In this document: in pieces, positions 5,214-25,941 of the stretch | Layout: every line of letters starts with the position of its first letter | Position numbering within the stretch: position 1 is the stretch's first letter | From: Candidatus Zixiibacteriota bacterium | GTDB lineage: Bacteria; Zixibacteria; MSB-5A5; GN15; PGXB01 | DNA length: 44,160 nucleotides | Direction of reading: 5' to 3' | NCBI GenBank assembly: GCA_026397505.1 | Contig: JAPLUR010000108.1 | Location: 1 to 44,160, forward strand | Made by a program: the position numbers and the translations under genes | The notes under the pieces: model-generated | Told to the model about the DNA's origin: nothing | Seen by the model: only the letters and a program-made list of their open reading frames with translations | Database searches by the model: none

Positions 5214-8200
5214 ATGATAAAGAAAATCCATATAACACTGGTTGTACTGATGCTTTTGGCCGCTATGGTTTCGGCACAGGAAACCTATTTTGGCAAGAAT
5301 AAGGTTCAGTACCACGGTTTCAGCTGGCAATATATACAGACGCGGGATTTTGACATTTACTTTTACGGTCAAAAATATGAGACGGCCAAATTTGCCTCTG
5401 ATGTGCTGGAATCAGCCTATGTCACCGTTTCCGATCAGTTGAATTACCGCATCCATCGTCGTGTACCGGTCTTCATTTATAATTCACCGAATGACTTTCA
5501 ACAGACAAATATTATCCCGGATTTGATTGACGAAGGTATCGGCGGTTTCACCGAGGCGTTCAAGAACAGAATTGTCATACCATTTGATGGTTCCACCGAG
5601 GATTTCCGCCATGTTCTGCATCATGAATTGACTCATGCCGTGGTTTATGACATGATTTACGGCAATGTGTTCAGTTCGCTTCTGTCGCGCCAGCGCCTTT
5701 TTGAACTTCCGACCTGGTACGCCGAGGGGTATGCCGAGTACAGCTCGCGCTACGGATGGGACTATTTCGCCGATATGGTTGTCCGTGATGCCACAATTAA
5801 CAATTATCTTCAGCCACCGGATTACCTGGGCGGCTATCTGGCCTATAAAGAGGGGCAGGCGCTGGTGGGCTATATTGCCGAAAACTATGGCGAACAGAAA
5901 TTGGGCGAAATCCTAGCGCGGGGTAAAGTCTATCTCACCATGAACAAATCTCTCAAAGCCTCTATCGGACTTACCGCCGAGGAACTCTGGAAGGGCTTTT
6001 CGAAAGAGATGAAAAAACGGTACTGGCCGGAGATAGCCCGAAGAAAGGAACCGGGAGAGATCGCCAAGGCTCTTACCAATCATGAAAAAGATGGCTCGCA
6101 ATTCAATGAGAAACCAATTTTCTCTCCCAAAGGGGATCGCCTGGCGATATTTTCGGACCGTTCCGACTACATTGAAATATATCTGATCTCGGCCATTAAC
6201 GGACATGTCATCGAACGGCTGGTCAAAGGGGAGCGTACCGGTGATATGGAATCGCTGCATTCATACCTTTCCGGAATAACATTCTCGCCCGATGGCGAGA
6301 AACTGGCCTTTGTAGCTAAATCCAAGGGAAAGGATGCCATTTATTTTCTCGATATCGGAAAAAAGGAAATTTACCTTCGCCGCTTTTTCAATTTCGGCAG
6401 TATCCTCTCCCCGGTCTGGTCGCCGGACGGCAAGAGAATCGCCTTCTCCGCCCTTGAGGGTCGTCAGAGAGACATCATGATTTACGATATTGACGCCGAC
6501 AGCACTTATCATCTGGTGCGGGATGATTATGATGATATCGATCCATACTGGTTCCCCGACTCCAAGACCATTGCATTTTCATCCGATCGCGCGCATCCCG
6601 ACAATGATTTTATTCTGAAGAATCTGCAGTATACACCGACCGACTCGGTGGATTACCGGACCATCTATAATAAATTCGGCTATGGAAATTATAGCCTGTT
6701 TACCATTGATGTCGCGTCAAGTGCGATCAATCCCATAGATTGCGGCCCGGGACAGAACCGCGAACCGGTTGTCTCGCCCGACGGCAAGAAGATCTGCTTT
6801 GTGAGCAATCGGAACGGTATTGACAATCTGTACCTCACCTATATCGATTCTACGGCCGCCCCGATTGCCATTACCGATCTCCTGACCGGCGCCGGTTCCC
6901 CCTCCTGGTCGCCTGATGGACGGCAGATTGCATTCTCGTCTTTCAATAAAGCCGGGTTCGACATTTATCTTATGAAAGATATCCAGCCGGCCGGGGATAA
7001 TGGAATCCTGGCGCCGACCGATTATGTGATGGGCAAATATAAAAAGGAATCCAGGGAAGCGCCTGTGGCGGCAAAGGATTCTTCAACTGCCATGACCGAT
7101 TCTTTATCATTGGTGCACAAAGCCGCCCATTCCGCTTCTATCGACAGCCTGGCACAGAAAATAAAGGGCGACAGTACCCGTATCGAAAATGGCGATTATG
7201 TCTATGTTTCCGATGAGAAAAGAAAGAAGGATGATCCGCTGTCTCATATTTTCGAAGATGTCTCCGACAGTAACAATGCCAAAAATTACCTCAAGCCTGC
7301 GGAAATAGCGATATTCGATTCCATCTCGAACACGAGCAAACTTCCCAGCGGTGAGTACAAAGTGCGTGACTACCGGGTTAGATTCACCCCCGATTATGTC
7401 AGCGGCGGATTCTCCTACGATACATTTTTTGGTCTGCAGGGGCAGTCGGCTTTCGTATTTTCGGACTATCTGGGGGATCACCAGATATTCCTTCTGACCG
7501 ATCTGGTCAATACCATCGACCAATCCAACTTCCAGTTGTACTATTTCTACAACCGGATGCGGACCAACCTGGGAATAGGCATCTTTCACACCAAAAATTA
7601 TTACATTGATGCCGACAACTATCTTTTCTCCGACCGCTTCTATGGTTTTCAGGGTTATCTATCACGGCCTTTCTCTAAATATTTCCGATTTGAGGCGGCC
7701 GCCTCGCAGATTTTCATCGATAGAAAATACCATGACAGCAACGATCCCCGTCCCGACCGGTCCACCAAAGTCACCACCGGGGCGGTCTCGTTGGTGCAGG
7801 ACAATATTCTCTGGGGAGTCACCGGCCCGCTCAACGGGCGCCGCTCGCGTCTTGATTTAACCGGCGCCGTCGACCTGTTTGAGAAAAACCGGATGTCTTA
7901 CTCCGCTGTCGATTTCGATTACCGGAAGTACTGGCATATCCGCAATCTCTACTCGGTGGCCTTCCGTCTCTCCGCCGGCGCCTCATGGGGCAAAACGCCC
8001 AAGCGATATTTCCTCGGCGGCACCACTAATTATATAGGCAATGTGGTGGTCAATGCCAAAGTGTACGATGTGGAGAATCTCTATTTTTCCGATGTGGTCA
8101 CGCCCATGCGCGGTTTTCAGTACTATGAGTTTTCGGGAACGCGGTACGTCCTGTCCAATTTTGAGTTCCGCTATCCTTTCATAGATTATCTGAAGATGAA

Positions 8201-8462
8201 TTTCCCGTTGCCGATGGCTATTCGTTATGTCACCGGTGCAATATTTTTGGATATGGGGGCAGCCTGGGATAACGACCAGACATTCAAGGGCGGGTCGACC
8301 GAAGGGAATCCGCATCTTCAGGATATAAAATCGGCATTTGGGTTCGGGGTGCGGGCCAACTTGGGATTTCTTGTATTGCGGTATGATTTGGCCTGGCGGA
8401 CAGATTTCGATTCGGTGGCGGCGCACCCCAAATATTATTTCTCTCTCGGCGCTGATTTCTAG
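5214..8462 (+). CDS. Zinc-peptidase-like / TolB-type propeller / outer-membrane barrel fusion protein
   Basis: The 1082-residue protein has a signal peptide (residues 1-21). A gluzincin-type domain follows, with zinc motif H137-E-L-T-H141 and a downstream glutamate in WYAEGYAEY (E171), as in peptidase-MA-like metallopeptidases. Residues about 290-600 contain five PD40/TolB-like propeller motifs (FSPDGEKLAF, WSPDGKRIAF, WFPDSKTIAF, VSPDGKKICF, WSPDGRQIAF). After a charged linker, about residues 720-1082 are rich in alternating aromatic beta strands and end in a terminal Phe (LGADF), the signature of an outer-membrane barrel. Similar architectures are known from FCB-group genomes, usually annotated as TolB-like or surface-antigen proteins. 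It probably works at the outer membrane with a periplasmic or surface peptidase; the substrate is unknown. It follows murA closely and is ended by the hairpin at 8492. Confidence 0.85.
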   Translation: MIKKIHITLVVLMLLAAMVSAQETYFGKNKVQYHGFSWQYIQTRDFDIYFYGQKYETAKFASDVLESAYVTVSDQLNYRIHRRVPVFIYNSPNDFQQTNIIPDLIDEGIGGFTEAFKNRIVIPFDGSTEDFRHVLHHELTHAVVYDMIYGNVFSSLLSRQRLFELPTWYAEGYAEYSSRYGWDYFADMVVRDATINNYLQPPDYLGGYLAYKEGQALVGYIAENYGEQKLGEILARGKVYLTMNKSLKASIGLTAEELWKGFSKEMKKRYWPEIARRKEPGEIAKALTNHEKDGSQFNEKPIFSPKGDRLAIFSDRSDYIEIYLISAINGHVIERLVKGERTGDMESLHSYLSGITFSPDGEKLAFVAKSKGKDAIYFLDIGKKEIYLRRFFNFGSILSPVWSPDGKRIAFSALEGRQRDIMIYDIDADSTYHLVRDDYDDIDPYWFPDSKTIAFSSDRAHPDNDFILKNLQYTPTDSVDYRTIYNKFGYGNYSLFTIDVASSAINPIDCGPGQNREPVVSPDGKKICFVSNRNGIDNLYLTYIDSTAAPIAITDLLTGAGSPSWSPDGRQIAFSSFNKAGFDIYLMKDIQPAGDNGILAPTDYVMGKYKKESREAPVAAKDSSTAMTDSLSLVHKAAHSASIDSLAQKIKGDSTRIENGDYVYVSDEKRKKDDPLSHIFEDVSDSNNAKNYLKPAEIAIFDSISNTSKLPSGEYKVRDYRVRFTPDYVSGGFSYDTFFGLQGQSAFVFSDYLGDHQIFLLTDLVNTIDQSNFQLYYFYNRMRTNLGIGIFHTKNYYIDADNYLFSDRFYGFQGYLSRPFSKYFRFEAAASQIFIDRKYHDSNDPRPDRSTKVTTGAVSLVQDNILWGVTGPLNGRRSRLDLTGAVDLFEKNRMSYSAVDFDYRKYWHIRNLYSVAFRLSAGASWGKTPKRYFLGGTTNYIGNVVVNAKVYDVENLYFSDVVTPMRGFQYYEFSGTRYVLSNFEFRYPFIDYLKMNFPLPMAIRYVTGAIFLDMGAAWDNDQTFKGGSTEGNPHLQDIKSAFGFGVRANLGFLVLRYDLAWRTDFDSVAAHPKYYFSLGADF

Positions 8463-8491
8463 GTGCCTGCGCAGACAATCTCTATATCACT

Positions 8492-8523
8492 AGGCAAGGA
8501 TATCAATCTGTCCTTGCCTTTTC
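8492..8523 (+). terminator. Rho-independent terminator after the peptidase/TolB fusion gene
   Basis: A perfect 9-bp inverted repeat AGGCAAGGA / TCCTTGCCT with a 10-nt loop, followed by TTTT, lies 29 nt after the stop codon at 8462. Confidence 0.85.
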
Positions 8524-8647
8524 ATGAATTCGGACAGAACATAACCCCTTCCCATTCCGTCAATTCCCCACCGCTCAAGGGCCTCAAAAGCCTTTACCCA
8601 ACATTTTGGAATCAAAGAGAAATATTTAGTTCTTTGCCTAAAATCGC

Positions 8648-8677
8648 TTGACATCGGAAGATATGACACGTTATATA
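8648..8677 (+). promoter_or_regulatory. Sigma70-like promoter of the beta-helix gene
   Basis: TTGACA at 8648-8653, then 17-18 nt, then TTATAT/TATATA. It lies about 255 nt before the ATG at 8933. Apart from this promoter and the terminator at 8492, the 470-nt gap 8463-8932 shows no feature I can support. Confidence 0.5.
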
Positions 8678-8932
8678 TATAGCAGGTAAGTAAATCGATC
8701 ACAACGACAATTCTGACCGTTGCGTCTAATGAGGTGGTGATGCCCTATGGTATGACGAGTTTAGGTCTATCTTGAGCATGTAGCGCATGATATCAACAAT
8801 CGTGTCTGGGCCATTCGGGCAACGGGGGTTATTTGCTGGCTGTACATTTGTTTCTACTTTGTGCTGACAAGTCAAACACTCTGCAGATACCTCCATAAAT
8901 TGAGATCTTGATTAGTTACAATAGGAGAATAT

Positions 8933-10261
8933 ATGTACACGCGAAAACTATTGGTGTTAGTTTTTATGATAAGTATCTTTATTTGGGCAGACGCCACATA
9001 TGGCCGTCTGATCAATGTGCCATCACAGGCAACTACCATACAGGCGGGTATTGATTCGGCGAATGCCGGCGACACGGTGATGGTGGCGTCCGGTACTTAT
9101 ACCGGGACAGGAAATATCAATGTTAATTTCAACGGTAAGGCAATTGTGGTGCGCTCTTATGCGGGATCGCAGTCTACAATCATTGATTGCAGTCCGGCGG
9201 GTAACCGCGCATTCACCTTTGACCAGGGTGAAACCCTGACGTCGAAACTGATAGGTTTTACGATTAGAAATGGCGACGTGCGTCATAGATACTCGGGTGG
9301 GTATCCTGATAAAAACGGCGGAGCCTTAAAAATCAAGGCTTCGCCGTCAATTAGAAGCTGCATATTCGAAAACTGCCAAGCTGTTCTCGGTGGAGCAATT
9401 ACTGTGCAAATAGCGGATGTGGAGCCAGAAATCTATCAATGCACATTTCGACATGATTCGACAGACGCTGAATTGGGCTGCCATGGTGGCGCTATATATT
9501 ATGGCAGTGGCGCGAAACTTACTGTATCGTATTGCACTTTTGATGCCAACTATGCCTATTCATCGGGGGGCGCAATATATGCTGGCGGTGACACTACTGT
9601 AGTTGAAGAAAGCATCTTTTATTCCAATATTTGTCCAGGAAATGGCGCTGCCATTACGGCGCTTAATACAACTATAGTGCGGGCCTCTACATTTGCCAAG
9701 AACCATGCGTTATATGGCGATGCTGTGTTAGCCGCAACCGGCTCTAATTTGCAGCTGAAAAGAAATATTATTGCATTTAATACTGGCCATTACGGTGCTG
9801 TAAGAAGCAATATTAATTCAACGATCACTTTTGAATGCAACGACTTTTGGAATAATCACAACGGTAGCATTACGGGAACTTATGACAGCACTTATGTCGA
9901 TAGTAATAGCATTTTTGGTAATCCTCTTTTCTGTGATTTGCCGAATGATGATTATTCCATTTCTGCCCATTCACCTTGTGATGAAGACAGCAGTCAATGC
10001 GGCCTTCTGATTGGAGCCGTAATGGTTAACTGCGACTATTGTTGTTGGCTTGGCGGCGATGCCAACAATGACAACAATGTGAATATTCAGGACGTAACCT
10101 TTCTGCAAAACTGCCTTTATTATGGCGGCCAATGCCCGCCATGCCAGGACAGCGGCGACCCCAATCATACTTGCGTAATTAACATTCAGGATATGACCTT
10201 CATAATAAATTACCTGTATAAGGGGGGGCCTGCGCCGGTTTGCGGTTGCGTAAGCCATTGA
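8933..10261 (+). CDS. Secreted right-handed beta-helix (DUF1565-like) protein with C-terminal dockerin repeats
   Basis: The 442-residue protein begins with a signal peptide (about residues 1-24). The next part has the typical opening of parallel beta-helix surface proteins: INVPSQATTIQAGIDSANAG, then DTVMVASGTYTG. Short repeated turns with GGAI/GGAIYAGG and C-TF motifs follow. The C-terminal 75 residues hold a duplicated dockerin-like module, GGDANNDNNVNIQDVTFL and a second copy with CVINIQDMTFIINYLYKGG, each with a calcium-loop DxNxDxxVNIxD pattern. AGGAGA upstream supports the start. The product is probably secreted and bound to a surface or to cohesin-bearing partners. No catalytic residues were identified, so polysaccharide lyase activity is not claimed. 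It appears to be monocistronic. Confidence 0.85.
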   Translation: MYTRKLLVLVFMISIFIWADATYGRLINVPSQATTIQAGIDSANAGDTVMVASGTYTGTGNINVNFNGKAIVVRSYAGSQSTIIDCSPAGNRAFTFDQGETLTSKLIGFTIRNGDVRHRYSGGYPDKNGGALKIKASPSIRSCIFENCQAVLGGAITVQIADVEPEIYQCTFRHDSTDAELGCHGGAIYYGSGAKLTVSYCTFDANYAYSSGGAIYAGGDTTVVEESIFYSNICPGNGAAITALNTTIVRASTFAKNHALYGDAVLAATGSNLQLKRNIIAFNTGHYGAVRSNINSTITFECNDFWNNHNGSITGTYDSTYVDSNSIFGNPLFCDLPNDDYSISAHSPCDEDSSQCGLLIGAVMVNCDYCCWLGGDANNDNNVNIQDVTFLQNCLYYGGQCPPCQDSGDPNHTCVINIQDMTFIINYLYKGGPAPVCGCVSH

Positions 10262-15259: not shown

Positions 15260-15335
15260 GGCGGTATCGTCTAGTGGCCCAGGACGGGTGGTTCTCAGCC
15301 ATCAAACCGGGGTTCGATTCCCCGTACCGCTACCA
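15260..15335 (+). tRNA. tRNA-Glu (anticodon CTC)
   Basis: A full cloverleaf can be folded. The acceptor stem is GGCGGTA/TACCGCT (first pair G-U), the D arm is GTCT...GGAC, and the anticodon stem is GGTGG/CCATC with loop TTCTCAG (anticodon CTC). The T arm is CGGGG/CCCCG with loop TTCGATT, followed by discriminator A and an encoded CCA. The D-arm sequence is close to that of E. coli tRNA-Glu, supporting the assignment. It is a single gene, not part of an rRNA operon. Confidence 0.95.
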
Positions 15336-15446: not shown

Positions 15447-15475
15447 TTGACAAACAGCATCTGGTATATTATAGA
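15447..15475 (+). promoter_or_regulatory. Sigma70-like promoter of the DUF4097-like / maturase operon
   Basis: TTGACA at 15447-15452, 17 nt, TATAGA at 15470-15475. It gives a leader of about 175 nt before the ATG at 15657. The leader contains a hairpin TGGCC (15554-15558) / GGCCA (15565-15569), with a run of six T at 15578-15583, a possible weak attenuator. Confidence 0.6.
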
Positions 15476-15656
15476 ATCATTGTATTTAGGGTAAGTCGCT
15501 AAAAAAATATTTCTGGGTTCCGGACTAGCGGAGTAGTTCTGGGTGGCTGTGTCTGGCCGAAAGTGGCCATCGCAACCTTTTTTGGCGGGAGCAATGCCAT
15601 GATGATCTTGATATTGGATTATGTCTATAAGAATGCCTACAATCAAAGGAGGTATC

Positions 15657-16526
15657 ATGAGATTGGGATTTGGGAAACTGGTGGGGCTCTTTCTTATAAT
15701 TTCGGTATTCTCGGGTAATGCCATGGCTTCGGCAAAAGAAGAATCTCACTCGTTCAGCAATGTAAGTTCTGTTAATATTGAGCTTCTGACCGGCAGCCTT
15801 GAAATCCTGACAGGAGATCAGGACGGGGTTGTGGTCCGCCTTCGCAACGAACTGCCTCGACCGGAGGTGCTTATTACTAAGATTGAGGTGGTAAATGGAG
15901 CGCTGGTAATTAAGGAGAATACGGGCGACCAAAAACCCAACGGAAAGACCTTTTGGACATTGCTGGTTCCATCGGATGCGAAATTTGCGTCGATCGTCTG
16001 CCATAGCGCTCTTGGTGAAATTGATTGCATCGGTTTGAAGGCAGACACAATCGACTGCAAAGCTGCTTCGGGGTACATCGCCGTTGATTCGCTCCAGGCC
16101 AAAAGCCTGACGCTGTCAACGACAACGGCACCCCTCACCATTAGACATTCAATCGCCCTGGAATCCGCTGAAATGGTTTCGGCCGACGGCGATCTGTTCA
16201 TTGAACTTCTCCATTTGCCCGCCAACGAATTAAAGGGTGCTTCTACCACCGGGAAACTGCAATTGGAGGTGCCTGATTTCGGAGAGAATTTCCAACTATC
16301 CATAAAGAAGAACGCCGGTCAGGGAAAGGTGATTAGTCCGTTCGAATGCACCAATAAGGAAACACGTAGATTAAACGAGAACGACCTTTATTTGACCGAC
16401 GTTTGCACCGTGATTCGCGGGAAGGGCGGTCCGGAAATTGACCTATTGACCGGCTCCGGCCTTATTCAAATAACTACCGATGATAAGCGCCACGCCGGTG
16501 ACCGGACGCCACCGGATAGCAAATAG
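15657..16526 (+). CDS. Secreted DUF4097-like beta-repeat protein
   Basis: I chose the ATG at 15657 because AGGAGG lies six bases upstream; an in-frame ATG at 15621 lacks such a site. The product is 289 residues, with a signal peptide (MRLGFGKLVGLFLIISVFSG, cleavage after about residue 25). The rest is short beta strands with alternating hydrophobics, VNIELLTGSLEILTGD near the start and GPEIDLLTGSGLIQI at the end, the pattern of DUF4097 putative adhesin-like proteins. Its molecular role is unknown. Its stop lies 19 nt before the radical SAM start, so the two are co-transcribed. That suggests a role in the peptide pathway, such as immunity, periplasmic binding or surface anchoring, but this is context inference only. 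Confidence 0.65.
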   Translation: MRLGFGKLVGLFLIISVFSGNAMASAKEESHSFSNVSSVNIELLTGSLEILTGDQDGVVVRLRNELPRPEVLITKIEVVNGALVIKENTGDQKPNGKTFWTLLVPSDAKFASIVCHSALGEIDCIGLKADTIDCKAASGYIAVDSLQAKSLTLSTTTAPLTIRHSIALESAEMVSADGDLFIELLHLPANELKGASTTGKLQLEVPDFGENFQLSIKKNAGQGKVISPFECTNKETRRLNENDLYLTDVCTVIRGKGGPEIDLLTGSGLIQITTDDKRHAGDRTPPDSK

Positions 16527-16545
16527 ATATGAGGAGGAAAAGACC

Positions 16546-17937
16546 ATGCCGGAGAAACTTAAACCATCATTCTATAACTTTCTGTTTGATCTTGATGATG
16601 GTAAGCACCTGGCTTTCAATGCCGTGACCGGGGCCTTTGTCAGAATCCATGAAGAGGACTACGAAAAAACCAAAGCCCTTTTTTCCTCGCCCGAGGACTT
16701 CGTCGTCAACGACGAATCCGACCGCAAACTGCTTGAGGACGCCAAAAGAGCCAAGTTTATAATTGATAGTGACACCGATGAATTTGACCTTTTGCGATTC
16801 CGCCACAATATGGGGAAATACTCCAGTGAACGGTTTTATTTGACCGTCATGCCGACCCTGGAGTGCAATTTCCGATGCCCTTATTGTTACGAGAATCCCC
16901 GCAAGGGGAAAATGAGTCCGGAGATGCAGCAAGCCCTTGTCCGATGGGTCGAGGAAAAGCTTCCCGGATGCCGGGGATTGGGTGTCGGCTGGTTCGGAGG
17001 GGAACCGCTGCTGGCTTTCGATGTCATTCGAAATCTGACCGCCGATTTCATCGCCCTGTGTAAGAAGCGTGATATCCAGTACACCGGATCAATGACTACC
17101 AATGGCTTCTTTCTAATTCCCAAAATCGCCGATCGCCTGGAGGAGTTGTCCATCAAAATGCTGCAGGTGACCCTGGATGGCCCGCCCGAATCCCACAACG
17201 CTCGTCGGGTATTGAGAAATGGACGGGGAAGTTTCCAAAGAATAATCGACAATCTCACCCTTATTTGCGAAAATTATCCCGATATCAATATCATCTTGAG
17301 AGTCAATTTTGATACTCAAAATTATGATTCGATTCCCGAAATCTTTGGATTTATACCGGATTCGCTCCGACTTAGGTCGCGGATCTATTTCCGTCAGGTC
17401 TATCCGCCGCCGCAGTGGTGGGACAAATCGACCCCAACCAAAACCTCCGCGGTACCCAGAGATGTGGGAAGTCTGAGTTTTATACATCTGGAGAAAGAGG
17501 CGCTTGATCGGGAATTCCTCGTTCTCCTGAGCAATTACTCTCCATCGGCCGGATACTGCGAAGCGGACTATGTGAATCATTTTGTGGTCGACCCCGACTG
17601 CAACCTGCACAAGTGCACCGTGGCCTTCGATGAGGAGCACCGCATCGGTCATATTACCCCGGAGGGCAAAGCCGTTATGAACATGCCCTTGCTGGCCAAA
17701 TGGATGCTCCGCGAAACAATGGAAAGAGATAATTGCCGGGTATGTCGAATTCTTCCCCTGTGTATGGGAGGATGCGGTTTCACCACCCTCTGCAACAAGG
17801 GAAGAAATGTCTGCAGCACAGTTAACAGCGAGAATATGGCCGTCGAAAATCTTAAGCTCCTTTATAGAAACAAAATTATCGAGGAGAGTCGCAAGAGACA
17901 ACTGAATCAACCTGAGCCGGCTGAAGCGGCTCTATAA
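16546..17937 (+). CDS. Radical SAM/SPASM peptide maturase
   Basis: I chose the ATG at 16546, preceded by GAGGAGG, over an upstream in-frame ATG inside the previous gene. The 463-residue product has an N-terminal segment (about 1-95) like that of peptide-modifying SPASM enzymes. The radical SAM cluster motif is C107-x3-C111-x2-C114 (CNFRCPYC), followed by GWFGGEPLL and TTNGFFL. The C-terminal SPASM domain has C338, C352 and C357, then C397-x2-C400-x5-C406-x3-C410, then C416 and C423, enough for two auxiliary Fe-S clusters. Enzymes of this class install thioether or C-C crosslinks in ribosomal peptides. The three Cys-rich peptide genes immediately downstream are the obvious substrates. Sactipeptide- or ranthipeptide-like chemistry is likely but cannot be read from sequence. 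Confidence 0.92.
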   Translation: MPEKLKPSFYNFLFDLDDGKHLAFNAVTGAFVRIHEEDYEKTKALFSSPEDFVVNDESDRKLLEDAKRAKFIIDSDTDEFDLLRFRHNMGKYSSERFYLTVMPTLECNFRCPYCYENPRKGKMSPEMQQALVRWVEEKLPGCRGLGVGWFGGEPLLAFDVIRNLTADFIALCKKRDIQYTGSMTTNGFFLIPKIADRLEELSIKMLQVTLDGPPESHNARRVLRNGRGSFQRIIDNLTLICENYPDINIILRVNFDTQNYDSIPEIFGFIPDSLRLRSRIYFRQVYPPPQWWDKSTPTKTSAVPRDVGSLSFIHLEKEALDREFLVLLSNYSPSAGYCEADYVNHFVVDPDCNLHKCTVAFDEEHRIGHITPEGKAVMNMPLLAKWMLRETMERDNCRVCRILPLCMGGCGFTTLCNKGRNVCSTVNSENMAVENLKLLYRNKIIEESRKRQLNQPEPAEAAL

Positions 17938-18019
17938 ATTGGGCAATGGGGAAAAAGCAAATTGTCGCTTAATGGGTGGGGGCGTGTGGGGAAACTAATA
18001 GACCAATGATAGCGATTAA

Positions 18020-18051
18020 CCGGAATGTATCCGGATTGATCCTTTCCTTTT
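18020..18051 (+). terminator. Weak hairpin plus T-rich tract between maturase and first precursor
   Basis: A 5-bp stem CCGGA/TCCGG with a 5-nt loop is followed after several bases by TTTCCTTTTTT. It could attenuate read-through from the maturase or separate transcripts, but the stem is short. Confidence 0.25.
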
Positions 18052-18118
18052 TTGCTGACAGTCTGAACCGGCTCCGAGAGGCAAACCGATTAATCTGTCG
18101 TGTAAGGAGGTGAGAAAT

Positions 18119-18259
18119 ATGGATTTTTTGATTCAGCCCATGGGACCTGAGATGCTTGGCGGTATTATTGATTTCGGTTGCACTACTAACAAGGTTGCGG
18201 GCTGTGGCTGCAATATGGTTCAGGGTTGTGGCTGTCCGCAGCAGATAATGGAAGCATAG
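18119..18259 (+). CDS. Cys-rich RiPP precursor peptide 1 (46 aa)
   Basis: An ORF of 46 codons begins MDFLIQPM and has a strong site, AAGGAGG, eight bases before the ATG. A leader of about 20 residues without cysteine is followed by a glycine-rich core with five cysteines at 21, 29, 31, 37 and 39 (C-x7-C-x-C-x5-C-x-C), including VAGCGCNMVQGCGCPQQ. Leader and core boundaries are inferred. It is the first peptide after the SPASM maturase. An LGG occurs at residues 13-15 but is absent from the sister peptides, so a double-glycine cleavage site is not supported. Metal binding through the CxC pairs is an alternative role. Confidence 0.88.
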   Translation: MDFLIQPMGPEMLGGIIDFGCTTNKVAGCGCNMVQGCGCPQQIMEA

Positions 18260-18450
18260 CCATTGCTGTAATTGCTTGGACTAGAGAATAGGTATTAAAC
18301 CTGATCGAGATGCCTTTTCGGAGCCGACGAAAATTACAGGTTTATTCTGAAGTTGATCGATAATTGAATCAACGGGTAATACTCTGATTTTAGATGAAAA
18401 CCGGCTTCGGGAGGCCGGGCGATCAATTTGTCGACAAGGAGGTGATAAAT

Positions 18451-18585
18451 ATGGATTTCCTCATCCAGCCTGTTGAATCAGCGTTGATGATTTTCGCTGT
18501 CTTTAATTGCATGCCCAATCAGGTGTCCGTGTGTGCCTGCAATCCGATAGCAGGTTGTACATGCCCGGTGCAGATTAAGGAGTGA
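18451..18585 (+). CDS. Cys-rich RiPP precursor peptide 2 (44 aa)
   Basis: Begins MDFLIQPV, with AAGGAGG eight bases upstream. Cysteines at 20, 28, 30, 36 and 38 keep exactly the same spacing as the other two copies, while most other core residues differ (VCACNPIAGCTCPVQ instead of GCGC). Conservation of cysteine spacing despite sequence divergence argues that the cysteines are what the maturase or the final structure needs. It is the most divergent intact copy and may give a different product. Confidence 0.86.
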   Translation: MDFLIQPVESALMIFAVFNCMPNQVSVCACNPIAGCTCPVQIKE

Positions 18586-18704
18586 TTGGGAATATGGTTT
18601 AGTCATCAATCGATTGAAGTTAGCGGCGAGCGTTATTTAAGGCCAAATAAAACCGGCTCCGGGAGACATATTGATCAAGCGATAGAATAAAGGAGGTGAG
18701 ATGG

Positions 18705-18833
18705 ATGGATTTTTTGATTCAGCCGATGGATTCAGCGATTTTCGGAAGCATCATTGATTTTGGTTGCGTTACCAATAAGGTAGCAGGTTGCGGCTGTAAT
18801 ATGGTTGCAGGTTGCGGTTGTCCGCAGACCTAA
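18705..18833 (+). CDS. Cys-rich RiPP precursor peptide 3 (42 aa)
   Basis: Begins MDFLIQPM, with cysteines at 21, 29, 31, 37 and 39. The core (KVAGCGCNMVAGCGCPQ) is almost identical to that of peptide 1, with a shorter tail. The start is the second ATG of an ATGGATGG sequence: the one at 18705 is in frame with the leader and has the same 8-nt spacing from AGGAGG as its sisters, while the ATG at 18701 is out of frame. Confidence 0.87.
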   Translation: MDFLIQPMDSAIFGSIIDFGCVTNKVAGCGCNMVAGCGCPQT

Positions 18834-19027
18834 ACCAGAACATTGTTGATTTACCTGTGAACAAACTCATTATCTGATCAAAGTGCTTTCCCGGAGCCGT
18901 TGGAAATTGTGAGTCTATTAGGCAATTGATATGTAGGTAATCGAGTTGGCAGCCTTATTCCATTGCCGAATGGAAACCGGCTTTGGGAATCAAACTAATC
19001 AATCTGTTAGAAAAGAAAGTGAGGCAT

Positions 19028-19110
19028 TTGGATTCTCTAATTCAGCAACTGTAACCAGCAACCGTATTTGAGGGCACAAACGGCATTGCGGCATCGCTTA
19101 ATATAATGTC
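19028..19110 (+). pseudogene. Decayed fourth precursor copy
   Basis: After a recognisable CCGGCTTTGGG block, a degraded Shine-Dalgarno (AAGAAAGTGAG) precedes TTG instead of ATG, then DSLIQQL matching the DFLIQP leader, then a TAA at 19052. Reading on in frame gives only PATVF-like similarity to the leader of peptide 3, and the cysteine core is lost. The rest of the gap to 19326 shows nothing else I can support apart from the promoter at 19327. Confidence 0.6.
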
Positions 19111-19326
19111 GGTTTTTTGTATAACACAATCGCGGGTTGAAGTGCCAATTAATGGATAGACCGGAACACTGCCGTTTGATTTGCGAAGTTGACGCCATTC
19201 CGGTTGAGATGCCTTCACCGACTCGTTGAGAGAATTTGGCTGGCCATTTTTCGAGCCGGGGATTGTCGAATGAACACCCTGCTATAACTCGAAATTTATT
19301 TTTAAAACGGACGTTCTAAAAAACTG

Positions 19327-19355
19327 TTGACATTGGAAATACTTGTGATTATAAT
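19327..19355 (+). promoter_or_regulatory. Consensus sigma70 promoter of the exporter operon
   Basis: A perfect TTGACA (19327-19332), 17-nt spacer, perfect TATAAT (19350-19355). The predicted transcription start near 19362 leaves a leader of about 50 nt before the ATG at 19412. It gives the exporter and barrel genes their own strong transcription, separate from maturase and precursors. Confidence 0.88.
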
Positions 19356-19411
19356 TATGCATTCGAATATTGACAACCGGTCGCTGTGTCGGCTGGAATC
19401 AAGGTGGGTAT

Positions 19412-21190
19412 ATGGCTAAAATTGACCATTCTGTCATCAAATCCTTAAAGCGTCTTTGGCCTTTTATGGTGAGGTACAAGCGGCGAGCTATTTTGGCCAC
19501 AGCGGCTATGCTCGTGGTCATAATAATGCAGTTACCTTTGCCTCTTTTGACAATGTATATAATCGACAAGCTCATCTCGCCTGATAAAGTCTCTCTGCTG
19601 GGCATCATATGCCTGGGACTTTTACTTATCTTGATAGTCCGCACGCTGGCCTCCCTGATGGAAATTTACCTTTTGACGGCTTTCAGGTTGCGGGTTGTTT
19701 ATGACTTGAAGCGATATCTCTATGAACACCTGCTTAAATTGTCCCTGGATTACTGTCACAAGAAACAGACGGGATATCTAATCTCCCGAGTCAGCGGCGA
19801 CATTGAGGGAGTCCAGGGGCTTTTTGCCGATACTTTTCTGAGCATAGTGCGCAATCTTCTTACCTTTATCGTCGGGCTGGTAATGGTTTACTGGTTGAAT
19901 GTGAAATTGGCGGTTGTGGCCACCTTGCTTCTGCCGCTGTACCTCCTGGCTCTGTTTTCCTTCAATAAGCGACTGCGTCGCTTGGTGGCCGAGAATCGTG
20001 AAGCCTACGCCAATGTATTTAAGTATCTTCAGGAGCATATTTCCGGCATAGCCGTCATCAAAGCTTTTGTCGCCGACCGTCATGATACCATAGGCATGCT
20101 GAAAGTGCTCAAGAACGCCATTCAAAAGGAATTTAAATCCAGCATGTCCGGCACGGTTGCCGCCCTGACCTCGGGATTCATAGGTTCTCTGGGGCCGATT
20201 TTGCTCCTGTGGCTGGGAATAATTGAAATCATCCATGGAAAGCTCACCCTCGGCGGACTTATCGCCTTTAATTCTTTCCTGGTTTACCTTTTCAATCCGC
20301 TCAATAGTATCTCCAATTTGAATATTACCGTTCAAAATTCTCTTGCCTGCGCGGAACGGGCCTTCGAATTTATTGACCTTAAGCCTGAAATCGAGATCCG
20401 GCAAAGCAATCTGGTTGACCGAAAGGCTATTATCACTCAGGGCGAAGTCGAGTTCCAGAATGTATCTTTCGCCTACAGCCCTGGCGCCGGAGACGTATTG
20501 AGCAATGTGAGTTTCCTGGTGCCGGCGGGAAAAATAACGGCCATTGTGGGTCGCAGCGGCATGGGGAAAAGCTCTATTGTCAATCTCCTCTTCCGTTTCT
20601 ACGAAAATCAGTCGGGCAGGATTACCGTTGATGGCCGCGATTTTCGGGAGTATGACTTATCCTATCTGCGCCGCAGTATCGGCCTGGTCACCCAGGAGAC
20701 GTTTCTTTTCGGCTACAGTATCATGGAAAACATCAAACTGGGAAACCTGCGTGCCACCGATGACGAGGTCATTGAAGCCTCCAAGGCCGCTTTCGCTCAC
20801 GACTTCATCATGAATCTCCCTGAGCAGTATCAAACCCGAATCGGCGAACGAGGGGCGTTGATTTCCGGAGGCGAACGGCAGAGGATTGCCCTGGCTCGAG
20901 TCTTCCTCAAAGACCCCAAGATCCTGGTGCTTGATGAGGCCACCTCTTCTCTCGACAGTCAGTCGGAAAGATATGTCAAGCAGGCGATGGAAAAGCTCTT
21001 TATTAATCGTTCCGCCATAGTAATATCCCACCGCCTTTCCACTATTATCAATGCCGACAACATTGTCCTTATCGATTCCGGCCGGGTGGTCGATATCGGC
21101 GTGCATACAACCTTATATTCCAATAATAATCTATATCGACGGCTTTACGACGAGCAGTTCACGGAGGCCGGACAGAAAGTTGGTTCGTAA
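19412..21190 (+). CDS. ABC exporter (type IV fold, TMD-NBD half-transporter), probable peptide exporter
   Basis: I chose the ATG at 19412, preceded by AAGGTGG; an in-frame ATG at 19370 sits almost on the predicted transcription start and lacks a ribosome site. The product is 592 residues, with six membrane segments (about 25-315) and a complete nucleotide-binding domain. Walker A is GRSGMGKSS (from residue 380), the signature is ISGGERQ (484-490), Walker B is ILVLDEATSSLD (D508, catalytic E509), and the H-loop is ISHRLST. All catalytic residues are canonical, so it should work as a homodimer. There is no N-terminal C39 peptidase domain. Its place after the peptide array suggests it exports the modified peptides across the inner membrane. 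The barrel gene follows 13 nt downstream. Confidence 0.92.
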   Translation: MAKIDHSVIKSLKRLWPFMVRYKRRAILATAAMLVVIIMQLPLPLLTMYIIDKLISPDKVSLLGIICLGLLLILIVRTLASLMEIYLLTAFRLRVVYDLKRYLYEHLLKLSLDYCHKKQTGYLISRVSGDIEGVQGLFADTFLSIVRNLLTFIVGLVMVYWLNVKLAVVATLLLPLYLLALFSFNKRLRRLVAENREAYANVFKYLQEHISGIAVIKAFVADRHDTIGMLKVLKNAIQKEFKSSMSGTVAALTSGFIGSLGPILLLWLGIIEIIHGKLTLGGLIAFNSFLVYLFNPLNSISNLNITVQNSLACAERAFEFIDLKPEIEIRQSNLVDRKAIITQGEVEFQNVSFAYSPGAGDVLSNVSFLVPAGKITAIVGRSGMGKSSIVNLLFRFYENQSGRITVDGRDFREYDLSYLRRSIGLVTQETFLFGYSIMENIKLGNLRATDDEVIEASKAAFAHDFIMNLPEQYQTRIGERGALISGGERQRIALARVFLKDPKILVLDEATSSLDSQSERYVKQAMEKLFINRSAIVISHRLSTIINADNIVLIDSGRVVDIGVHTTLYSNNNLYRRLYDEQFTEAGQKVGS

Positions 21191-21203
21191 CCAGGGAGGT
21201 TTC

Positions 21204-23333
21204 ATGAGCAGAAATGGATGTTCTTCTTTGATTTTAGTATCGTTGCTACTGATCGCTTCGAGTCTGTCGGCTTCAGAGACGGATTCCAGCTTTGCAGCCT
21301 TCATTAATCAGCCTCTTGATTCTTTCGCGGTTAATATAATCCGATTCGACTCGCCCCCGACCATCGATGGCGAACTGGGAGATTCTTGCTGGTCGACCTG
21401 CAAACCATATAACCATTTCACTCAGGTGCAACCCAATCAGGAATTTCCTGCCTCTGAGAGCACCTATTGCTATTTCGGCTATGACGCGCGGAATTTCTAT
21501 TTTGCCGTCAAATGCTTCGACTCCGAACCAGATAAGGTCATTGCCAACATGAAAAGGCGAGAAGATACCGGGGGTGAAGATATCGTGCAGTTTAGCCTCG
21601 ACACTTACAATGATCAGCGCTCGGCCTATGTTTTCGCGGTCAACCCGCTGGGAGTGCAATCCGACGGTATCAAGATGATCTACGGTAGCGATGGCAGCTG
21701 GGATGGCATCTGGAGCTCGGTTGGCCGCCGGACCGATTTCGGCTGGCAGGCCGAAATCGCCATCCCCTTCAAAACGCTTCGTTTCTCCCGTAAAAACGAA
21801 CAGGTCTGGCGCGTGAATATCGTCCGCCTGATTCAGAGAAAATCGGAAGTCGATACTTATGTCCCATTCCGGAAAATCGATAACAATGACCTGGAGCGCA
21901 CCGCCGAATTACGAGGAATCAATTCTATAAATATTGGCGGGATATTCGAGGTTGTTCCGTATGCCACCGATCGCTATGAGAAATACTATCAAACGACCGA
22001 CTCTAATAAGGCCGATGCCGGCGTTGATGTCAAGTACGGTATCGGTTCCAATGTCATTCTCGACGCCACCCTCAATCCCGATTTCAGTCAGGTTGAGGCC
22101 GATATCGATTACATAAATCTCTCCCCCTATGAATTGTACCTTCAGGAGAAACGGCCCTTCTTCCTGGAAAAAATGGATATTTTTCAGACTCCCTTCAATC
22201 TGTTCTACAGCCGACGCGTGACTGATCCCGAGGCCGGTCTGCGGCTGACCGGTAAAATCGGAAATTACGGATTTGGCGCATTCTACGCCAGCAATAACAA
22301 CAAATACACCGACTGCAAGGATGACTTCGTTATCGCCCGACTGGAACGGCAGTTCATGAAACAATCGCATCTGGGGGGAATGATTACCTATGTCAAGGGC
22401 AGAAACCGCCATAACGGCAACCTTGCCGCCGACTGGCAGATAATCAAAGGTTCCTTCTCTTTCAGCGGCCAGATAGTCAAGAGCGATACGAAAAATTACG
22501 AAAAGATGGATTGGAAAGGAACCACGTCGCTCTTCTTCACCCGGAGTAATTTCTCTTTCGAACTAAAACATTCTTTCTATGAAAGAAATTTCTTTGCCGA
22601 TGCCGGCTTTGTATTTCCGGTGGTCGTAGATTTGAATTTTACCCCCTTCTCTTATCGCACCAATTCCCTGGATATCTATTATGACCTGTATATCAACAAG
22701 CACCATTTTCAAACTGTCTCCACCATTGTCAAGTCCTACCTGCAACATGATTATGATGGCCGTTTGCTTACCCGCAATATCGCTCCGCAGGTCATAGTGC
22801 AAATGGACAAGAATATCAATTTCAGAATCGGTTCTACTTTAAACAGACAACTCTGGGAGAACAGATATTTCGACATCTATACCGTAAATCTCCAATTCAG
22901 CGCCAACCCCAGCGGCTATTTTGGAGTATCCGGATATTATGAGGAAGGGCAGACTTTCGATTACTGGTCTGTTAAGGTAGTGTGGCAGCGGTACGTCAAC
23001 CTGGCCTTAATCTGGAATGCCGGCAAGAAACTGGAGCTTGTCCCCTCGGTTATATATATGAGTCAGTATGAGGCGCATTATGGGCGAAGAACTTATAACC
23101 AGTGGAACGGCCTGCTGCGGGTGGGGTACCATTTTAACAAGAATATTTTCTTTAAGGCATTTGTGCAGGGAAACGGCATGGACAAGTATTATATGGGGAA
23201 TTTCTTATTTGGATATACATTCCTTCCCGGCTCGACTTTCTACCTGGCCTACAACTCGAATTACTTCGGCGCCGACTTCAAGCCGGATACCCGTATCCTC
23301 TTCGCCAAAATTTCGATGCTGGTGAATATATAG
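21204..23333 (+). CDS. CBM9-like / DUF5916 outer-membrane beta-barrel protein
   Basis: The start at 21204 is preceded by AGGGAGG and gives 709 residues with a signal peptide (MSRNGCSSLILVSLLLIASS). Residues about 40-200 match the carbohydrate-binding-module-9-like fold at the front of DUF5916 proteins (PPTIDGELGDSCW, YCYFGYDARNFYFAVKC, QAEIAIPFKTLRF). The segment LNPDFSQVEADIDYINLS, then EKRPFFLEKMDIF, is typical of DUF5916, and the rest is aromatic-rich beta strands of an outer-membrane barrel. These proteins are widespread in Bacteroidetes-like bacteria, with no settled function. The 13-nt gap from the exporter indicates co-transcription. An outer-membrane exit or surface receptor for the peptides is an inference. 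Confidence 0.85.
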   Translation: MSRNGCSSLILVSLLLIASSLSASETDSSFAAFINQPLDSFAVNIIRFDSPPTIDGELGDSCWSTCKPYNHFTQVQPNQEFPASESTYCYFGYDARNFYFAVKCFDSEPDKVIANMKRREDTGGEDIVQFSLDTYNDQRSAYVFAVNPLGVQSDGIKMIYGSDGSWDGIWSSVGRRTDFGWQAEIAIPFKTLRFSRKNEQVWRVNIVRLIQRKSEVDTYVPFRKIDNNDLERTAELRGINSINIGGIFEVVPYATDRYEKYYQTTDSNKADAGVDVKYGIGSNVILDATLNPDFSQVEADIDYINLSPYELYLQEKRPFFLEKMDIFQTPFNLFYSRRVTDPEAGLRLTGKIGNYGFGAFYASNNNKYTDCKDDFVIARLERQFMKQSHLGGMITYVKGRNRHNGNLAADWQIIKGSFSFSGQIVKSDTKNYEKMDWKGTTSLFFTRSNFSFELKHSFYERNFFADAGFVFPVVVDLNFTPFSYRTNSLDIYYDLYINKHHFQTVSTIVKSYLQHDYDGRLLTRNIAPQVIVQMDKNINFRIGSTLNRQLWENRYFDIYTVNLQFSANPSGYFGVSGYYEEGQTFDYWSVKVVWQRYVNLALIWNAGKKLELVPSVIYMSQYEAHYGRRTYNQWNGLLRVGYHFNKNIFFKAFVQGNGMDKYYMGNFLFGYTFLPGSTFYLAYNSNYFGADFKPDTRILFAKISMLVNI

Positions 23334-23589: not shown

Positions 23590-25941
23590 TCAATTCTTCC
23601 ATTTTTCGGTGTCAATTTTGCAGAGCACCGACTCCAGATCGTTGAATTTGACCTTATCAGGTTTGTACGGGAGCGGGGGCAGCGTTATTTCCATCTCGGG
23701 TTTATCGACAAGAATCCTTATCCGAGCCGTCCCCTGCTTACCAAAATCAAGCAGCACCGGCACATACATCTTAAAATTGTCCGGAACGTCGAGTTGCTTG
23801 ATCCGGCATGTGACCAGGTATTTATCATCGCCTTCCGACTCTGTTTTGTACGAAAACTTGTAGGTCGGAATATCAATGCCGTAAACCCACTGGTCAAAAA
23901 ACCATCCCATATCATCGCCGACATGCCTTTCGACTATCTGTCGAAAATCCTCTGTCGAGGCTTCCTTGCCGCTGTAATTCAAATAGAAATCCCGCATCAT
24001 GTTCAAAAAACGATCTTCATTCATAGTCTGAAAATCAATCAGCAGGTTGCGCAACATATGCAGGACCCACGCCCCTTTTTCGTAGGACATCAGGTCAAAA
24101 CCCTCGGGATGGTCGGCGCTTGACGCACGATAGCCGAGGCTTATCGGCCCGACGAACCTGTCATCATTGACCTTTGTCTTATATCTCTCCAGTATGTCAC
24201 GCCGGTGATCATTCAAGCGGTCAAAAAATTTCTTGTTGTCCTTCAGGGCGATCTGAAGATACCACAGACCCGAATACTCCGCAAAACCTTCGCTGAGCCA
24301 TTTGTCGTGATATGTCTTGTAATCAACGCCATAACCCCACCATTGATGGGCTACCTCGTGCGCCCGCAGCATTTGATCGTAACCTTCCCGCCCGGATATC
24401 TGAAAGGTCATCAACGAAAGATGGATTAAGCCTCGGAACGCCTCGCCGCCCAAATCAGTGACTTCCGTGGCGTAGAATTTATCAACCGGACAGTTGCCGT
24501 AAATATGCTGGAAGAATGAAATGCTGTTGGCGACATCGCCGCCCACCTGCTTTTCCATACTCTTGCCGGAGAGAGTGCCTTCAGCCAAAAGAGCCTCTTC
24601 AATTTCACGATGTCCCATTTTCGACATCAGTACAGTTACCGGAGGAATTCTCGGATCTTGAATCTTATACTCCTTGAAATACCCTATATTAAAAGAAGCA
24701 TTACGAATCGGAATCGGCGTCAGCCAGCGGCTTATTCTTACGCCGCTCATAACAGTGTCGGCCACAAGGTCACCGACACTCACAAAATCACAATCGGACG
24801 GAGTATGAAAGGTCAAGTCAAAAACGGCCCGGTTCCTGTCCTCGACATCGGGATACCAGGCTGTTGATGTTCTGAATATCAGCCAGTTCATTTGACGCTC
24901 GATGATTTCTCCATGATAATAAATGGTAACGGAATCGACCTGGCCTTCACTGATAGCGGCCGGGCATTGTACCCAAAGATAAGGATTCTCATCTCCTTTA
25001 AAGTATTCCATTTTGAGACTCCCGCCCCAGATTACTGAATCGACTTCCATTTTGGGATAAAGAGAAAAATAAAACCATCTCTGCAGCGGCAGGGTCGATC
25101 TCAGCATAACCGTTGCGCGCGCCGAAAAGCCGAAACGATTATTGAATGTGCAATCTATATTATATCTGTCTATACGACAGCCCGCCGGATAATCAGATGG
25201 GAGGATGCCGGGATCCGAATCGTCCGAAAACTGGCAGACAACTTCCCGGGCATCCCGGGACATTTCCGGCCACCTGCGCATCAGACTGACCTGCTCTTCG
25301 GCATACGGATCGATCTTGTAGAACAGCGGCCTTTCATCGACTGTAAAAATATGAGCATAGAAGAGTTTGTTGTATCGCTGATCCAGAAGCGTCTTGATTA
25401 TATCCGGGTCGATTTCTTTGCCTTTCTTTTGCCCCATATAATCGCGTGATTTCCTGACGATTTCTTTTGCCTCTGAAGGTATCTGAGACGTAACAAAGGA
25501 AAGTCTCTGCTTAAATTCATTATTTACGCTGTCTCCGAAAATCAGGTACAGATTTGTAAACTCCCGATTCAGACTGTCGACACCATAGAATCTCTTCAAC
25601 TGCTGTCGCTCAGGTAATATGGGCGGCTGGAAAGCGAAGCGGCCTCTGCCGAAAAAAATCGCCCGGCAGATTCTGCCGCCAATCGACGGCAGAAGGTACA
25701 GCCGACCCTGTTCAAGGACAAACTCAGCCGCACATTTCTTCAAGACAAATCCGGAATCGGGAATCTCGGCAACATCACCAAAACTCGAACCCAAATCTGC
25801 AAGGCTTTCATAAAGTCTGGTATACGTCGGGGAATTGTCGCCGTCATAAATATTATGCTCTCTTCTCTGCGCGAATGTTGATGAGGTTACAAAGAACCAT
25901 AATACTATCAAGACAAAGACTAGCGAAATGCGCAAACACAT
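23590..25941 (-). CDS. Secreted M1-family metallopeptidase
   Basis: The 783-residue protein has a signal peptide (about residues 1-24) and an M1-type beta-sandwich N-terminal region. The catalytic domain has H528-E-V-A-H532 followed by E551 in WLSEGFAEY, the HExxH-x18-E zinc signature of M1 aminopeptidases. A GGEAF segment stands in the position of the GxMEN substrate motif, so exopeptidase specificity may be altered. AGGAGG precedes the ATG. It should act in the periplasm or outside the cell on peptides. It is convergent with the peptide-export operon and has its own promoter, so a role in trimming the exported peptides is possible but not shown by operon structure. Confidence 0.9.
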   Translation of the reverse strand: MCLRISLVFVLIVLWFFVTSSTFAQRREHNIYDGDNSPTYTRLYESLADLGSSFGDVAEIPDSGFVLKKCAAEFVLEQGRLYLLPSIGGRICRAIFFGRGRFAFQPPILPERQQLKRFYGVDSLNREFTNLYLIFGDSVNNEFKQRLSFVTSQIPSEAKEIVRKSRDYMGQKKGKEIDPDIIKTLLDQRYNKLFYAHIFTVDERPLFYKIDPYAEEQVSLMRRWPEMSRDAREVVCQFSDDSDPGILPSDYPAGCRIDRYNIDCTFNNRFGFSARATVMLRSTLPLQRWFYFSLYPKMEVDSVIWGGSLKMEYFKGDENPYLWVQCPAAISEGQVDSVTIYYHGEIIERQMNWLIFRTSTAWYPDVEDRNRAVFDLTFHTPSDCDFVSVGDLVADTVMSGVRISRWLTPIPIRNASFNIGYFKEYKIQDPRIPPVTVLMSKMGHREIEEALLAEGTLSGKSMEKQVGGDVANSISFFQHIYGNCPVDKFYATEVTDLGGEAFRGLIHLSLMTFQISGREGYDQMLRAHEVAHQWWGYGVDYKTYHDKWLSEGFAEYSGLWYLQIALKDNKKFFDRLNDHRRDILERYKTKVNDDRFVGPISLGYRASSADHPEGFDLMSYEKGAWVLHMLRNLLIDFQTMNEDRFLNMMRDFYLNYSGKEASTEDFRQIVERHVGDDMGWFFDQWVYGIDIPTYKFSYKTESEGDDKYLVTCRIKQLDVPDNFKMYVPVLLDFGKQGTARIRILVDKPEMEITLPPLPYKPDKVKFNDLESVLCKIDTEKWKN

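Follow-up and report, generated by a model that had tools for sequence, protein, structure and literature searches.

Does the run of genes between positions 15447 and 23333 of contig C108, from a 3.4-Mb Zixibacteriota genome, encode a RiPP system, and if so, what bonds does its enzyme make and by which route does the product leave the cell? The window considered here is the whole of that contig, 44,160 nucleotides, in which a first-pass annotation had singled out this run of genes. The analysis is best explained by a known kind of RiPP system, with a new precursor and maturase family and a co-inherited outer-membrane barrel. Judged from sequence, the gene set very probably serves to make small cysteine-rich peptides, to crosslink them and to export them; the crosslink chemistry, the export route and the biological role we infer. 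Taking these parts together, we consider it likely that the genes form a RiPP biosynthesis and export operon whose thioether-crosslinked peptides leave through an MsbA-like exporter, with the barrel as candidate exit. The locus would add a precursor and maturase family from a little-known phylum, and our literature search turned up no paper that mentions Zixibacteria together with ranthipeptides.

The gene set and its precursor peptides

The elements claimed by the first-pass annotation were all recovered at their positions and on a single strand (plus) by open reading frame, domain and repeat evidence: a DUF4097 gene, a maturase gene, three peptide genes, a decayed fourth copy, an exporter gene and a DUF5916 gene, in this order. 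The first (15657-16526) encodes a secreted DUF4097 ('toastrack') protein of 289 residues with an apparent N-terminal signal peptide (PF13349, E 4.7e-9 with Pfam), and is followed by the gene for a 463-residue radical SAM/SPASM peptide maturase with an RRE-like N-terminal domain (16546-17937), assigned from domain matches, an AF2 model and orthologs. Beyond the peptide array lie the genes for a 592-residue MsbA-like ABC half-transporter (19412-21190) and for a DUF5916 protein with a signal peptide, a CBM9-like domain and a large outer-membrane beta-barrel (21204-23333). Of the two promoters that had been proposed, the one 5' of the exporter gene (TTGACA-17-TATAAT, 19327-19355) matches the sigma-70 consensus at 12/12 positions in the promoter scan, whereas the one 5' of the DUF4097 gene (TTGACA-17-TATAGA, 15448-15476) is weaker than had been said: it is missing from the list of the consensus scan, and is a possible sigma-70-like promoter that looks plausible when read by eye. 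A tRNA-Glu(CTC) gene lies immediately 5' of the cluster (15260-15335). We rejected a genomic island at this tRNA, since its 3' end has no second copy downstream within the 44-kb window, which thus shows no trace of island integration.

The three precursor genes encode peptide 1, MDFLIQPMGPEMLGGIIDFGCTTNKVAGCGCNMVQGCGCPQQIMEA (coding sequence 18119-18259, or 18104-18259 with its Shine-Dalgarno sequence AAGGAGGTGA), peptide 2, MDFLIQPVESALMIFAVFNCMPNQVSVCACNPIAGCTCPVQIKE (18451-18585, or 18436-18585), and peptide 3, MDFLIQPMDSAIFGSIIDFGCVTNKVAGCGCNMVAGCGCPQT (18705-18833, or 18690-18833), all on the plus strand. Each opens with the leader MDFLIQP, and the cysteine spacing, 8-2-6-2, is identical in all three. 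The 44-kb window holds the sequence AAGGAGGTGA three times where 0.12 occurrences are expected, each time 5-6 nt before a peptide start, and the same ten bases precede peptide genes in three of the orthologous clusters described below (G007, first copy; G009; G093). The genes for peptides 1 and 3 differ at 6, 5 and 20 sites in codon positions 1, 2 and 3, respectively (binomial P = 4e-4). From these translation signals, the third-position bias and their recurrence beside orthologous maturases, we judge the peptides to be real genes. The first-pass annotation had counted a lack of translation as evidence against its reading; the Shine-Dalgarno sequences and the codon-position bias point to translation. 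Its statement that the precursor family was unrecognised holds against both Pfam and NCBIfam, neither of which has a family that matches them.

The fourth copy (18973-19130, plus strand, the decayed gene lying near 19029), recognised from repeat families D2/D3 at 18973-19060 and from a four-unit alignment, is no longer intact: its Shine-Dalgarno sequence is partly degraded, to AAGAAAGTGA, the ATG start has become TTG, and the reading frame is lost to a stop after the eight codons of LDSLIQQL. The repeat unit takes in the 5' region, from which we conclude that the array arose by tandem duplication. An element, CCGGCTcCGgGAG, lies about 40 nt 5' of each peptide gene, the decayed one included (18064-18093, 18397-18426, 18649-18678 and 18973-19002), and its reverse complement, CGGAGCCG, follows copies 1 and 3 (near 18319 and 18893). 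An RNA structure in these repeated intergenic units (the CCGGCTcC element and CGGAGCCG) was considered and set aside, as they fold not convincingly better than shuffled sequences (z -1.8 to +0.6), and Rfam has no family in the window except the tRNA.

Conservation of the cluster and its leader

In a search of 146 genomes, orthologs of the maturase were found in G007, G009, G093 and G018 (57, 56, 43 and 36%, respectively); within the phylum, orthologs occur in 5 of 132, the window's own genome included. The five enzymes form one clade in a quick tree (SH-aLRT 97), and the maturase appears from its sequence to represent a distinct clade that comes with new precursors. A profile query of public contigs, unlike a single-sequence one, gave matches: JAGVEJ010000051.1 for the G009 cluster and WJIM01000327.1 for the G093 cluster, both from Candidatus Zixiibacteriota. 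The first-pass annotation had proposed asking whether relatives of the peptides always sit beside this maturase, and counted maturases never adjacent to such peptides as evidence against its reading. Cys-rich peptides adjoin all four orthologous maturases, so that the linkage extends to five genera: MDFMIEP... and MDFIIEA... in G007, MEILIQP... in G009, MDELRGP... in G093, and in G018 six peptides that start M[EQH][FL] and have a GCCC core. The G018 peptides are tandem precursors (L045, G018:C124, 6099-7710) whose cores end in LTGS, LTAT or LTVS, at a locus that also encodes a TraB/PrgY-like protein and an ABC-2 exporter. A VxGCxC-type motif ends the core in three genera.

The order DUF4097, maturase, peptides, exporter, DUF5916 is common to three genera (the window, G007 and G009). 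A fourth, G018, keeps the maturase, the peptides and the barrel, and a fifth, G093, keeps the maturase, a peptide and the exporter. The pairing with DUF4097 and DUF5916, which had been called unusual, is therefore real and conserved, both being present in three genera and DUF5916 in four, but it is not universal, as G093 has neither beside its maturase. Orthologs of the DUF4097 protein (35-37%) were limited to the clusters of G007 and G009, beside the maturase, and the five genomes searched hold no good homolog of it outside the clusters.

We next describe the leader as a strict pattern: a small ORF with an ATG start that begins M-x-[FYWL]-[LIM]-[IVTL]-x-P and has at least three Cys. In 26 Zixibacteriota loci, the stretches up to 3 kb from a maturase, 192 kb of strand in all, hold 32 such ORFs. 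The 616 kb away from maturases that served as control hold one, itself some 3 kb from a maturase. The roughly 68-fold higher density near maturases is a description of this set rather than an independent test, because the motif was first noticed there and then counted in an overlapping set. Thirteen of the 26 loci have a strict-pattern peptide; the precursors of G009 and G093 escape the pattern. Bacillota loci of the same maturase superfamily have similar leaders, such as MEYLIQP and MEYLIKP, and short MxFLIxP-type leaders recur across the superfamily. That one short leader motif accompanies a large superfamily of Cys-rich RiPP maturases offers a handle for mining.

The window's genome encodes four further paralogous maturases, one of them with seven peptides. 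At that locus (L046, G000:C69:5000-20000) the maturase (7105-8307) and the peptides (8477-9843), all on the minus strand, are accompanied by a second radical SAM protein and an ABC exporter; the peptides start M-x-[YF]L[IV]-x-P, and most end in P[LC]YG[VI] and a short tail. Many Zixibacteriota genomes hold peptides of this type, and the tested examples match no NCBIfam model. Adjoining another of the paralogs is an MNWLVEPPDG... peptide with eight Cys (L048, G000:C10, 7988-8176), weakly similar to the CefA precursor model (E 0.055). A Desulfobacterales contig has four tandem maturase homologs behind a single precursor, MEWIVEPEDETQRLEGAPGCCCMCSVTCSNGGGCTYYTPFCPSFG (L060, DTYH01000194.1, 4000-13124).

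The maturase and its proposed crosslink chemistry

The AF2 model of the maturase (pLDDT 91.5) has an N-terminal strand-helix domain, residues 1-91, modelled at pLDDT above 90 and RRE-like by fold. The conserved cysteines comprise the CX3CX2C triad C107/C111/C114 and C338, C357, C397, C400, C406, C410 and C423. A Cys pair equivalent to positions 292/302 is present in most other maturases of the phylum and absent from the window, G007, G009 and G093 enzymes, which on our reading of the SPASM pattern leaves C338, C357 and C410 for auxiliary cluster I. SkfB and CteB are thioether synthases with an auxiliary cluster open to substrate Cys (PMC8326336). The three candidate ligands are compatible with an open site of this type and support thioether formation, short of proving it.

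The alternative is a RiPP radical SAM enzyme of another chemistry, one that makes a carbon-carbon crosslink, a cyclopropane or an epimer, with the cysteines later forming disulfides or binding metal. SPASM folds host many chemistries, and TigE and the sulfatase maturase anSME align to the model almost as well as CteB does. TigE (PDB 8vpo) matches the whole length of the fold (Z 24.2 over residues 1-444), so that the fold does not fix the chemistry; TigE, however, presumably belongs to a poly-cyclopropylglycine peptide pathway, and the precursors here are Cys-rich. Such a peptide pathway is known (PMC9062424). We consider non-thioether chemistry unlikely: cysteine is the main residue class kept with its spacing in the cores, the candidate ligands of Aux I type number only three in this clade, and the closest enzyme by both sequence and fold is a thioether synthase. 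The RiPP reading as such is well supported by the maturase-peptide linkage in five genera, the RRE-like domain, a fold and candidate ligands like those of thioether synthases, and precursors that appear to be translated; within it, thioether formation is the chemistry that we prefer.

Proposed export and mechanism, and known systems

ABC_membrane and ABC_tran are the only domains of its own that Pfam finds in the exporter. C39 bacteriocin exporters have an N-terminal C39 peptidase domain and act with double-Gly leaders; by contrast, the exporter here has no C39 leader-peptidase domain, and no double-Gly motif is common to the three window peptides. Its orthologs in the G009, G007 and G093 clusters (71, 67 and 54%) stand well apart from the next homologs (36-38%), and the G018 cluster has a two-gene ABC-2 exporter instead. 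The cluster encodes no leader peptidase, nor is a linked protease conserved among the clusters. A secreted M1-family peptidase adjoins the cluster (23590-25941, minus strand) and has a 50% homolog in G013 near a different maturase (C239); we rejected it as leader protease because it is widespread (54 of 146 genomes) and lies off the cluster contigs in G007 and G009. The TraB/PrgY-like protein was likewise rejected as leader protease or immunity protein, being found only in the G009 and G018 clusters and absent from G000 (the window's genome), G007 and G093.

Membership of the barrel protein in DUF5916 is clear (PF19313, 94.6 bits against a gathering score of 22.6, E 8e-27), and its model (pLDDT 81.7) shows what looks like a signal peptide, a CBM9-like domain and some 21-24 long strands from about residue 234; by fold it is an outer-membrane barrel. 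Other DUF5916 proteins combine a CBM9-like domain with a barrel as this one does, but the non-cluster paralogs align well to the cluster members mainly over the N-terminal part. DUF5916 genes lie within the cluster in G007, G009 and G018 besides the window, and in a tree that also holds ten further DUF5916 proteins from these genomes the four form a clade of their own (100/100) whose branching, ((window, G009), G007), G018, is that of the maturases. It is mainly because of this co-inheritance that we include the barrel in the system.

What the barrel does is the least secure part of our reading. That it acts as a dedicated channel through which a radical SAM-crosslinked peptide passes the outer membrane, in concert with the periplasmic DUF4097 protein, is a tentative proposal that we regard as rather doubtful; if true, it would give RiPPs a way out of the cell other than TolC-type export, and would be the first function for DUF5916, a family on which our literature search found no paper. 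With DUF5916 tied to a specific pathway, its role becomes directly testable. Somewhat closer to probable, if still short of it, is that the barrel is a receptor, importer or immunity protein, the DUF4097 protein is protective and a bacteriocin-like peptide exits by another channel. Several diverging precursor copies suggest a diversifying activity, and Foldseek with the barrel model returned the FimD usher, OccK porins, PirA, AlgE and LptD with nearly equal scores and query TM below 0.4: TonB-type receptors and substrate-specific porins are among these neighbours, as are secretion barrels, and none of the many is a specific relative. With no close solved relative, the structure makes import or a surface role just as possible. 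A receptor, on the other hand, fits less well with a protein that has no Pfam domain match to the TonB receptor plug, and the barrel's persistence with the maturase in G018, where the inner-membrane exporter is replaced, fits either role. Metal-binding peptides, metallothionein- or metallophore-like, matured by the enzyme, exported and perhaps re-imported through the barrel, could account for the paired CxC motifs in the window, G007 and G009 peptides; we think this very unlikely, as the conserved gene set has no metal-uptake genes and the GCCC cores of G018 and the cores of the paralogs differ widely.

For the RiPP operon with thioether crosslinks we propose a mechanism in which leader binding, thioether chemistry, exporter substrate, the roles of the barrel and the DUF4097 protein and the biological activity are all steps that we infer. 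The RRE-like domain (about residues 1-91) would bind the MDFLIQP leader, probably as an added beta-strand, by analogy with CteB. Hydrogen abstraction by the radical SAM cluster would take place at residues of the core, and a core Cys thiolate would be bound by auxiliary cluster I (C338, C357, C410), giving thioethers along the C-x7-C-x-C-x5-C-x-C core. The peptides made from the three parallel genes may then exit the cytoplasm via the MsbA-like exporter, either with the leader still attached or after a protease encoded outside the cluster has removed it. Once in the periplasm, they would meet the co-inherited secreted DUF4097 and DUF5916 proteins, the latter being the best candidate for outer-membrane passage. 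Against this explanation stand NCBIfam scores below cut-off, a cluster without a peptidase, the lack of DUF4097 and DUF5916 in G093 and the different exporter of G018.

Among named families, the maturase is nearest to Clo7bot (TIGR04334), its best NCBIfam equivalog, at 266 bits against a cut-off of 600, and scores 242 against 525 with TIGR04463, 210 against 600 with CefB (NF038107) and 159 against 400 with the geopeptide maturase (TIGR04280). These four are whole-length radical SAM/SPASM homologs, named peptide maturases by NCBIfam, yet the enzyme reaches less than half of each curated cut-off and its precursors fall in no NCBIfam or Pfam family; searching by family name, we found no literature on them. 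All 52 relatives scanned match these families. Scores are lower still for the PapB ranthipeptide maturase (NF047865, 108 against 340) and the SCIFF maturase (TIGR03974, 72 against 425). PapB is reported to join Cys to Asp/Glu (PMC9413430). The radical SAM domain of the PapB/freyrasin system is related to the one here, but our cores have no regularly repeated Asp/Glu acceptors. The closest known enzyme is the CteB/SCIFF ranthipeptide synthase (PDB 5wgg, 5why), first in the profile search (E 4e-45) and matching in structure with Z 28.3 over residues 8-441 (395-396 residues aligned for CteB and TigE). The two have a nearly whole-length fold in common, RRE-like domain included, at 17-18% identity, and differ in precursor and context: the enzyme described here sits in an operon of Gram-negative type, with secreted proteins and an outer-membrane barrel.
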